DNA of 49,182 nucleotides, taken from NCBI RefSeq assembly GCF_000949255.1, contig NZ_JXUW01000023.1, positions 1 through 49,182 of the forward strand. The letters run 5' to 3'. The position numbers and the translations under genes are program-made. Below the pieces are notes generated by a model. It was not told the origin of the DNA, did not search any database, and saw only the letters and a list, made by a program, of their open reading frames with translations. Shown in pieces: positions 20,041-39,070 of this stretch (its first letter is position 1; each line of letters starts with the position of its first letter). The stretch is from Ferrimicrobium acidiphilum DSM 19497 (GTDB lineage Bacteria; Actinomycetota; Acidimicrobiia; Acidimicrobiales; Acidimicrobiaceae).

Positions 20041-20432
20041 TGGCCGATCATGAGAGCATAGATAACGCGACCATCGCGAATTCGTATCGAGAACTGACCG
20101 GCACAGTTCCTGCTAACATTGCCGAACGCATCCGGATCGCGGGGATCTCCGGGCGCAATAGAAGCATCATTCGCATCGAGGAGCTCCGGTCACAACTCAT
20201 CATGGACAATCCACTCGGACCAAAGACGGCACAGCTCGTGCATTTTGCACAACTCCTGGCCATTGGCGAGGAGAAGGAAGCGGAACTCCATGCGGATGCT
20301 GCCCGTAAAGCTGGCGCCTCTTTAGAGGAGCTCGTAGGTGTAGTAGAACTCGCTCTAATTACGGCCGGCATGCCCGCATATAGCAGAGGAGTCGCCATCC
20401 TGGGGCGAGTCTTCCCAGAGAATCAAACCTGA
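20040..20432 (+). CDS. Carboxymuconolactone decarboxylase-like protein
   Basis: The 130-residue all-helical protein has the CMD pattern: LGPKTAQLVHFAQLLAIG, then HADAARKAGASLEELVGVVE and AGMPAY. There is no CxxC, so it is not a peroxidase of the AhpD kind. It resembles the gamma-carboxymuconolactone decarboxylase branch, although it is too degenerate to name a substrate. The ATG shares one base with the aldolase stop. Confidence 0.72.
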   Translation: MADHESIDNATIANSYRELTGTVPANIAERIRIAGISGRNRSIIRIEELRSQLIMDNPLGPKTAQLVHFAQLLAIGEEKEAELHADAARKAGASLEELVGVVELALITAGMPAYSRGVAILGRVFPENQT

Positions 20433-36949: not shown

Positions 36950-37240
36950 TGCCCAACCTCAATAGCCCTCATCGCTACCACTCCAGTCATTCCCGCGAGA
37001 ACAAACTCGGTCACCAACTTCGCATACTCCACCAGATCGATCCTGCCAGGTCCTTCACGGAACCAGCGAGCATGCCAGTTGAGGATGCCAAACGTCGACA
37101 TGGTGAGAGCCTTGATCGTCGATACCTCTAGCCCTGCCCCAAGCTGGCCAAGCAGCTCCTCCATCACCCGGACAGTAAGAATGGGTACGCCAGCTGTTTT
37201 GCATGCCAATACCTCTATTAGGGATAGACATGCAAAGATA
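36946..37240 (-). pseudogene. TetR-family regulator, C-terminal remnant
   Basis: The strand is open from the IS110 junction at about 37240 to a stop at 36946. It encodes about 97 residues: IFACLSLIEVLACK followed by FGILNWHARWFREG and EYAKLVTEFVLAGM, the ligand-binding/dimerisation part of TetR regulators. The DNA-binding N-terminus is missing and is not found on the far side of the IS110 element, so it was deleted. The operon downstream has probably lost its own repressor. Confidence 0.75.
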
Positions 37241-37242
37241 GT

Positions 37243-37430
37243 TGGTGGCTAGCTGCCCCTGGTGGCTTGACCCTCACCCGGACCGACGTAATTGTCATTG
37301 TCTTGACTCGTCAGCCATCAGGGGTAGTTGGCCAGAGGCATCAGCCTCAGCCGACAACGTGACCTCATGAGAGCACGGCATATGGCCCCGTTACTGTCTT
37401 GTCCGTCGCCGACCAAGAGCTGATGCCGAT
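37243..37430 (+). ncRNA. Candidate IS110 bridge RNA (target and donor loops)
   Basis: Stem 1 pairs 37247-37267 with 37313-37333: 21 consecutive pairs, of which four are G-U that would be A-C mismatches on the other strand, so the fold belongs to a forward transcript. Its 45 nt loop holds GTCTTGAC (37300-37307), the complement of the right flank GTCAAGAC (38579-38586). Stem 2 pairs GGCATCAG (37337-37344) with CTGATGCC (37420-37427). Its loop holds CATGAGAGC (37366-37374), identical to the element's right end (38570-38578), and ACCAA (37412-37416), complementary to the left end TTGGT (37242-37246). The target-loop-then-donor-loop order is the known IS110-group layout. Confidence 0.75.
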
Positions 37431-37454
37431 CCTAACCAATGGAAAGGAGTCAGT

Positions 37455-38513
37455 ATGAATGTTACTTCGTTGGGGGAAGGACAGGTAGCTGGCGGGGTCG
37501 ATACCCATCAAGACCTGCATGTGGCCGCGGTTGTCGATCACACCGGAAAGGTGCTTGGTACCAAGAGCTTTCCCACCACCCGTCACGGTTATCTGTCACT
37601 CATTACTTGGATGCGTTCTCTTGGTGATGTCGCTCGAGTGGGTGTCGAATGCACGGGCAGCTACGGAGCTGGCCTTACCAGGTACCTTGGGGCCGCGAAC
37701 ATCCCCACGCTTGAGGTCACCCGACCGGACAAGTCCCTTCGTAGAGCACAGGGCAAGAGTGATGATTACGACGCCATCGCAGCAGCCCTCGCTGCCCTCT
37801 ATGGGCAGCGCGTCCAGGTGGCCAAGGATCGAAGTGGGCAGGTAGAAGCCCTTCGTGTGCTGCGCACGACCCGAAAGACCGCAATCAAGTGTCGCAGGGC
37901 CACCCTACAGGAGTTGCACAATACGATCGTGGCGGCATCCGATAAGATCCGCGAGCAATATCGAGGTGAGACCCGGATGCACCTGTTGCGCAAGCTTGCG
38001 ACCTCCCGCCCAACCAGAGAGAGTTTCCGCGATCCCGACATCGCAACCCAGATCGCGCTCAAATCACTGGCCAAGCGTGTGCTTGAGCTCAATGACGAGA
38101 TCGCAGATCTCGATGAACTCATCGAGAAGCTGGTGAAGGAGTTAGCAGGACCACTGCTCGAACTTCCCGGCATGGGAGTAGATAGTGCTGGTGAGTTCTT
38201 GGTGGCCGCGGGTGACAATCCAGAGCGTCTCGGTTCAGAAGCCAGCTTTGCGATGATGTGTGGAGCTTGTCCCATCCCTGCATCCTCGGGTAAGACCAAC
38301 CGTCACCGACTCAATCGTGGGGGAAACCGTCAGGCGAATTCCGCGTTACACATCGTAGTTCTTTCCCGCATCCGAATGGACGAACGAACCCAGGCCTACG
38401 TGACCCGTCGTTTGGCGGAGGGCCTCTCAAAACGAGAAGTAATGAGGTGCTTGAAGCGCTATGTTGCCAGAGAGGTGTATCACGTTTTGGTCAATCACAA
38501 GGTGGCTGCCTAG
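37455..38513 (+). CDS. IS110-family DEDD transposase/recombinase
   Basis: The 352-residue protein has the RuvC-like DEDD domain: Asp in GGVDTHQDLHVAAVVD, Glu in VGVECTGSYG and the Asp pair in KSDDYDAIAAAL. A coiled-coil middle region follows. The C-terminal Tnp20 domain has ELPGMGVDSAGEFLVAAGDN and the serine-bearing IPASSGKTNRHRLNRGGNR. In this family the enzyme uses a bridge RNA to join donor and target DNA. AAAGGAG precedes the ATG. The frame is complete, so the protein may be active. Confidence 0.93.
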   Translation: MNVTSLGEGQVAGGVDTHQDLHVAAVVDHTGKVLGTKSFPTTRHGYLSLITWMRSLGDVARVGVECTGSYGAGLTRYLGAANIPTLEVTRPDKSLRRAQGKSDDYDAIAAALAALYGQRVQVAKDRSGQVEALRVLRTTRKTAIKCRRATLQELHNTIVAASDKIREQYRGETRMHLLRKLATSRPTRESFRDPDIATQIALKSLAKRVLELNDEIADLDELIEKLVKELAGPLLELPGMGVDSAGEFLVAAGDNPERLGSEASFAMMCGACPIPASSGKTNRHRLNRGGNRQANSALHIVVLSRIRMDERTQAYVTRRLAEGLSKREVMRCLKRYVAREVYHVLVNHKVAA

Positions 38514-38578
38514 GTTTCTCCATCGAGGCCCGCTAACATTCAAACGACTTACTCTCTCGACTTGACAAACATGAGAGC

Positions 38579-39019
38579 GTCAAGACCAAGGTAGCAAACC
38601 TACGAGAAGGGGCAGAGGGTTTTGACTTCCTAGGGTTTCACCATCGCATGGTGAAGTCCTGGAAGAGACAAGGTCGTTACTATCTCAACAAATGGCCCTC
38701 GCCTAGAGCTATGGCATCGATCAGATCCAAAGTTAGGGATCTGACCCAGCCACGGCAGGTAGGGCGTCCATTTGAAGCAGTAGTCGAACAACTCAACCCG
38801 GTACTTCGTGGTTGGGGCACCTACTTCTGTCAGGGTAACTCCTCCAAGAAGTTCGGAGCAATCGACTCCTACGTACACGAGAGAATGGCGAAGTTAGCCT
38901 CCAGGAAGTACGGCCTATCCGGTTTCAACTGGATCGACCGCTTCACCTGGGAGTGGCTAGGGAACCTTGGTATCTACCGACTCAGTGGAACCATACGCTA
39001 TCCAACTGCGCATGCCTGA
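38579..39019 (+). pseudogene. Group II intron maturase/reverse transcriptase, C-terminal fragment
   Basis: From the IS110 right end the frame VKTKVANLREG leads into EGFDFLGFHHRMVKSWKR and YLNKWPSPRAMASIRSKVRD, and later LRGWGTYFCQGNSSKKFGAI. These are the end of the reverse transcriptase thumb and the maturase domain X (GIIM) of intron-encoded proteins. All polymerase motifs, including YADD, are missing. The fragment begins precisely at the IS110 end, so the element or an associated deletion removed the rest. Confidence 0.85.
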
Positions 39020-39037
39020 GAATGAACGGTGTCTCCA

Positions 39038-39070
39038 AAGCCGTGTGCGGGCGAACCGCATGCACGGTTT
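39038..39070 (+). ncRNA. Group II intron domain V
   Basis: AAGCCGTG (39038-39045) pairs with CACGGTTT (39063-39070). TGCGG (39046-39050) pairs with CCGCA (39056-39060) below the loop GCGAA. The two-base bulge TG (39061-39062) sits on the 3' side as in canonical domain V. The catalytic AGC triad is at 39039-39041. This 33 nt hairpin lies just behind the maturase stop, where domain V belongs. Confidence 0.85.

Follow-up and report, generated by a model that had tools for sequence, protein, structure and literature searches.

Positions 37189-37432 of the window (the whole stretch of DNA analysed, 49,182 nucleotides long) very probably encode, at a probability of about 96%, a bridge RNA (seekRNA). 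It belongs to an IS110-group element with ISEc21 and ISMch6 among its relations, whose guides appear to have been retargeted and which is presumably expressed and functional. The element can be read as a member of a known RNA-guided family with a changed target because its four guides match its own ends and its landing places. What a bridge RNA should show in its sequence was seen in each test run, except for a site that is perfect on both target sides. The features of the element, of its predicted RNA and of the two insertion sites, designated A and B, are as follows.

37161..37173, + strand: left half of target site A, which falls in a reverse-strand tetR gene; one open frame when joined to the flank on contig C11
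37174..38580, + strand: IS110 element; a core of 1-2 nt, C at 37173 or 38581, is common to element and target
37174..37178, + strand: right-donor sequence AGTAA, start of the left end; pairs with 37391-37395
37189..37246, + strand: predicted 5' stem-loop of the bridge RNA, from the fold of 37187-37432; a stem at the same place is predicted in most groups of relatives
37247..37333, + strand: putative target-binding stem-loop, from the fold, covariation and a model match at 37248-37404
37274..37283, + strand: putative left target guide UCACCCGGAC, identical to the left flank 37164-37173 (site A), 10/10
37300..37305, + strand: putative right target guide GUCUUG, reverse complement of CAAGAC in the right flank of site B, 6/6
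37337..37428, + strand: putative donor-binding stem-loop, from the fold of 37187-37432; inner pairs kept in 28 left ends
37366..37374, + strand: putative left donor guide CAUGAGAGC, equal to the element's right end 38570-38578, 9/9
37391..37395, + strand: putative right donor guide UUACU, pairing with AGTAA at 37174-37178, 5/5
37455..38513, + strand: IS110 transposase/recombinase, 352 aa (NF033542, E 5.9e-53; PF01548, 1.2e-22; PF02371, 2.2e-15)
38562..38567, + strand: TTGACA, candidate -35 box, within a 22-nt block identical in L011-L014
38570..38578, + strand: left-donor sequence CATGAGAGC in the element's right end, matching the left donor guide
38581..39019, + strand: right half of target site B, in a group II intron RT/maturase gene (TIGR04416, PF08388), the 3' part of which was also placed at 38584-39070

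The minimum-energy fold of 37187-37432 contains three stem-loops, namely a 5' stem-loop followed by two stem-loops with internal loops, which is the order expected of a bridge RNA, and it includes stem 2 (GGCAUCAGC/GCUGAUGCC). The first-pass annotation of this DNA had described two successive stem-loops within 37243-37430; stem-loops 1 and 2 do lie there, but a third precedes them and the RNA region is larger, at approximately 37189-37432 (about 245 nt, with estimated ends). Stem 1, formed by 37247-37267 with 37313-37333, has the 21 consecutive pairs originally reported, and recomputation of its positions places all four non-Watson-Crick pairs (37250-37330, 37252-37328, 37255-37325 and 37262-37318) as G-U on the forward strand. 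In the donor-binding stem-loop the inner pairs (helices 6 and 7) are formed in 98.8% of cells across 28 left ends, and the outer stem varies between groups of relatives. For 37200-37455 the fold energy is -107.1 kcal/mol on the forward strand (z -5.58, 0/200 shuffles as good) and nearly as low on the reverse strand, at -107.0 kcal/mol (z -4.47), so that fold energy alone cannot choose the strand. The minimum-energy fold of this interval has stem 1 and lacks stem 2, because position 37200 cuts the 5' stem-loop; a minimum-energy fold without the stems, named at the outset as a result that would count against the reading, was thus found by half for 37200-37455 and was not found for 37187-37432. 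The step from G-U pairs to selection on a forward RNA is weak when taken from one sequence, and is strengthened by a covariance model that matches the forward strand only and by stem 1, which over the 28 left ends (27 of relatives, one of the window) holds 58 G-U against 24 A-C cells (binomial p 2e-4, for cells that are not independent, in an alignment that leans toward the forward fold). At gathering scores, an Rfam search of the window returned only a tRNA, and no other RNA family reached threshold, a point against the reading.

The limits of the element can be read from its other copies. Identity with the copy on contig C32 begins at 37171, identity with that on C11 stops at 38583, and the exact ends are fixed by empty sites, with a base-to-base join in genome G016. 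The genome of origin (68 contigs) holds one complete copy, the C32 copy, which runs off the contig end, and the C11 copy, at a contig end. Insertion took place without target duplication beyond the short core, as seen base to base at site A in G016 and from a continuous frame at site B. The left non-coding end measures 281 nt against 67 nt for the right end (38514-38580). Both the DEDD RuvC-like domain and the Transposase_20 domain with its conserved Ser are present in the transposase, with D16, E65, D103/D106 and S278 as candidate catalytic residues, positioned by a weak alignment to IS621 (8wt6, E 4.7e-8). In this alignment, S278 falls on a Ser of 8wt6, numbered 243 in the chain, which is taken to be S241 on the assumption of a two-residue offset. 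The TTGACA near the right end would face the left end in a circular form, where it might serve as part of a promoter; in the integrated element, the -35 position of the left flank is occupied by AGCTCC. The 24 right ends with TTGAC[ACT] are no independent count of this motif, because the search pattern requires TTGAC[ACT].

Regarding the insertion sites, joining the window's left flank to the C11 right flank by script restores at site A an open frame with TetR_N and TetR_C_24 domains. The two flanks adjoin in 6/6 other genomes of the same genus, and the exact 20-mer is uninterrupted in G016. At site B, the C32 left flank and the window's right flank, rejoined in the same way, give an open frame with RVT_1 and GIIM domains, and in genome G019 the intron RT is uninterrupted and differs from the 14-mer of site B by one mismatch. 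The 5' part of the intron lies on C32, with a GTGCG start, located by eye, near C32:28740. On the window's contig the IS (37170 / 38583) has half of site A on one side and half of site B on the other, which suggests an assembly join across the repeat, because two identical IS copies have the other halves at contig ends inside the IS; recombination between IS copies is an alternative source of the join. With half-site A joined to half-site B, the genes left of 37170 and those right of 38583 may therefore not be neighbours.

The strand logic of the four guides is the published one, in which the first loop pairs with the target and the second with the donor. Of the target-loop guides, one corresponds to the left target's bottom strand and the other to the right target's top strand, and the donor-loop guides match both element ends, which bears out the target-then-donor order proposed in the first-pass annotation. 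UCACCCGGAC occurs twice in the window on a search of both strands, at 37274 and 37164 only, and CAUGAGAGC is found three times in the window, twice in the element and once at 20049. Against the bridge RNA stands the observation that each site fits imperfectly on one side: the right target guide matches site A at 3/6 positions, and the left target guide matches site B at 8/10 (counted by eye), its two mismatches falling at positions that match in just 4 and 10 of 26 elements. The exact sequence CACCCNGACAAGAC is absent from the genome of origin; with one mismatch it is found there at five places, all on one strand, versus 1 + 1 for the reversed pattern, which is to be read with the pattern being partly shaped by site B. 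On the donor side, all lettered cells of the right donor guide pair with the left end in the 28 left ends (one gap, one G-U), and column 4 covaries (A-U 12, C-G 11, G-C 5). The matches of the four guides to the ends and to two sites thus support the original interpretation as an IS110 bridge RNA, the function of which is presumed from the published systems.

Relatives were drawn from a genome collection (14 loci) and from plasmids, where 1286 records matched by protein and 1165 by left-end DNA; the plasmid regions used were 18 of the 60 listed among the protein matches and 11 of the 60 listed among the DNA matches. With the genome of origin counted, the transposase search found 6/42 genomes of the family at E 1e-60 and, at E 1e-100, 6/397 genomes of the order and 1/396 of the phylum. 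Duplicates (L014, L024 and L002) are not counted separately, and L087, L089 and L124-L131 lie outside the counts. The 28 left ends were aligned (alignment A1, which includes L055), and the covariation that had been proposed as a check is present: 93.1% of 1000 cells are paired, 22/36 pairs show changes on both sides, and 0/500 shuffles reach any of five measures. Slid versions of the structure pair at 30-47%, a control that flatters it because the structure comes mostly from the fold of the same alignment and because donor-guide pairs are included (5 of the 36 pairs are guide-donor pairs and not part of the RNA fold). The proposed check with a covariance model also bore out the reading. Model R1 was built from 22 relatives, being 24 stretches less L013 and L060; L055 was among them, and the window and its near kin L010, L025 and L004 were kept out. 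Its sole match in the window up to E 1 is at 37248-37404 on the forward strand, which is that of the transposase (E 1.1e-26, a rough value from a short calibration). R1 has three matches in the genome of origin, two of them copies of the element (in the window and on C32) and the third a decayed left end, on contig C10. This last one (L004 1454-1769; G000:C10:62915-63183) keeps a bridge-RNA remnant with 71% DNA identity and an R1 E-value of 9.9e-6, and no matching transposase gene adjoins it.

The guides also covary with the targets across relatives. For the left guide, 26 elements give 194 matches versus 167.5 (sd 4.7) on permutation (p 5e-5), and an extension to 38 elements gives 274 versus 242.6 (sd 6.4; p 5e-5); for the right guide, 22 elements give 118/132 versus 98.8 (sd 3.4; p 1e-4). 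These permutation p-values overstate the case because relatives are not independent samples. From the 28 elements, the left-guide test dropped L013, the left flank of which resembles another IS110 end, and L004, which is decayed and has no transposase; this helps the result because both match poorly (3 and 2 of 10, respectively). No right end was obtained for L010, L018, L023 and L004, and from the 24 elements with a right end the test dropped L060, with a right flank like another left end, and L013. At the left flank of L013/L014 and the right flank of L060, an IS110 end abuts another IS110-like end, and such tandem ends might place a junction promoter beside a left end.

Lying directly upstream of the transposase start, the RNA region could be taken for a structured 5' leader that regulates only the translation or transcription of the transposase and has no guide role, the more so as the small RNAs of ISPpu9 are thought to modulate recombinase expression, according to the passage on this element in PMC11208160. 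A leader of this kind would leave unexplained the four segments that match both element ends and two insertion sites, as well as the covariation of guides with targets and donors across relatives, and it is very unlikely. Even less probable is a DNA-level feature or chance palindrome in place of an RNA: the two strands fold at similar energy, but the forward G-U bias, the compensatory changes and a covariance-model match on one strand only all speak for a transcript. Just as remote is an IS1111-group element, from the same wider IS110 family, in which the RNA would be located in a right end and accompanied by subterminal inverted repeats of 7-17 bp, since here the right end is too short at 67 nt and the model match falls in the left end. 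All three were rejected on the basis of the guide covariation, the one-strand model match and the location of the RNA, and the bridge RNA is retained as the preferred reading.

From the perspective of the target, ISEc21 inserts into IS3-family transposase genes, at the codons that surround the second Asp, according to the sections on this element in Siddiquee et al. 2024 (PMC11187229), which also report natural redirection of ISMch6 through guide changes. His-Ser-Asp codons can be read in 24 of 38 left flanks and Asn-Thr-Asp codons in 9; those that read as neither are L018, L090, L096, the window and L025. In the right flanks, bases five and six are GG in 20/22 as counted by eye, forming a Gly codon in that frame, with the window and L025 as exceptions. 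Such flanks, those of most relatives, were read as the second-Asp region of IS3-type transposases, the reported target of ISEc21. The window's sites are not of this kind, one being in tetR and the other in a group II intron RT gene. L010, which at 92% protein identity is the closest named relative, retains a His-Ser-Asp left flank, and L025, from the same genus, has guides that are nearly those of the window and a site that matches them at 8/10 positions on the left and 4/6 on the right, a fit that also counts against the bridge RNA; the guide change thus lies within the group formed by the window, L010 and L025. The transposase of L025 (G019:C25:10628-11686; 82% protein identity) is decayed, with two TGA and three TAG stops inside. 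The guides of the window's element would therefore have changed from the usual target of its relatives, in what looks like natural retargeting of a presumably active element. Both target guides changed and now fit a group II intron RT gene, which amounts to one mobile element landing in another, and with all four guides readable within a single genome the element offers a ready-made test case of natural retargeting.

By analogy with what is published for IS621 and ISEc21, excision would yield a circle in which the TTGACA of the right end comes to lie at the left end, creating a promoter. The RNA would be transcribed from this junction promoter and then bind the transposase, its two loops would bring circle and target together, and recombination would occur at the short core around a C. 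The changed guides would fit the group II intron RT gene of site B and, by the left guide, the tetR gene of site A.

A segment resembling a second left target guide was noticed in the 5' stem-loop of several relatives (L012, L018, L023, L044-L051, L055-L057 and L090-L099). As judged by eye, 24/38 elements carry such a copy of the left-guide segment, which is a partial duplicate of the 5' half of the target loop. Some relatives might thus have two alternative left target guides with one right guide, and the RNA could switch target addresses, a tentative idea held at rather low odds. Taking the better of the two guides, the 24 elements give 120 matches versus 108.4 (sd 2.6) with the copies shuffled, the copy being better in 12, the loop guide in 10 and the two tied in 2. 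The copy was scored absent by eye in 14/38 elements, and the test was repeated without this choice: with nothing dropped by eye, 33 elements give 167 versus 153.1 (sd 2.5), which keeps the signal, and 20 elements from Alphaproteobacteria give 101 versus 92.7 (sd 2.4; p 6e-4). For the copy alone, p is 0.0016 (33 elements) and 0.011 (the 20 from Alphaproteobacteria), and was 0.18 in the first test on 23 elements. Asn-type targets are found in 5/10 elements that combine a His-type loop guide with an Asn-type copy, as against 0/23 of the other elements whose loop guide is His-type (p 0.001; 5/10 versus 0/6 in Alphaproteobacteria, p 0.058). The arm of the copy pairs with the 3' arm of the target loop better than shuffled partners do, summed over 22 of the 24 elements; for 18 alphaproteobacterial elements the sums are -501.7 versus -443.4 kcal/mol (sd 13.9), and the target loop's own arm pairs more strongly, at -666.0. 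These signals were found post hoc among relatives that are not independent, and a duplication by itself creates complementarity. Self-duplication is evident in L018, L051, L012 and L055 (p 0.0005 to 0.006) and was not found in the window's own 5' stem-loop (score 25 versus a null mean of 25.5, p 0.57), so that the idea is not claimed for the window. A search for an independent sample gained little from genomes (matches in 3/398 and 4/385), and in viral contigs it gave 23 stretches, none with the donor-loop signature; further viral-contig searches gave 3 stretches and 4 loci, and one more gave 5 stretches, no relative being among these five. The titles and abstract openings of the bridge-RNA literature searched make no mention of a second left guide, which, if true, would be a property of bridge RNAs absent from the consulted paper sections on IS621 and ISEc21.

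Among known elements ISEc21 and ISMch6 come closest, the window's element being placed beside them by RNA and protein similarity and not by its target. As in the window, the RNA of both lies in the upstream non-coding end and its bottom-strand match precedes the top-strand match, and ISEc21 forms a promoter at the circle junction (PMC11187229), where the window's element would have its candidate -35 box. The transposase of L055, annotated as ISMch6-like, is 55.8% identical to that of the window, the RNA of which is recognised by a model that includes L055. Unlike ISEc21 as described there, the window's element has other guides and sits in tetR and group II intron RT sites (PMC11187229). IS621, in the sections consulted of Durrant et al. 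2024 (PMC11208160) and Hiraizumi et al. 2024 (PMC11208158), shares with the window the succession of a 5' stem-loop, a target-binding loop and a donor-binding loop, the LTG/RTG/LDG/RDG strand logic and a recombinase that aligns weakly by way of 8wt6. The two differ in the length of the RNA (177 nt in IS621 versus about 245 nt, by its estimated ends, in the window), in their targets and in the core, which is CT in IS621 and lies around a C in the window's element, and their protein similarity is low (PMC11208160, PMC11208158).
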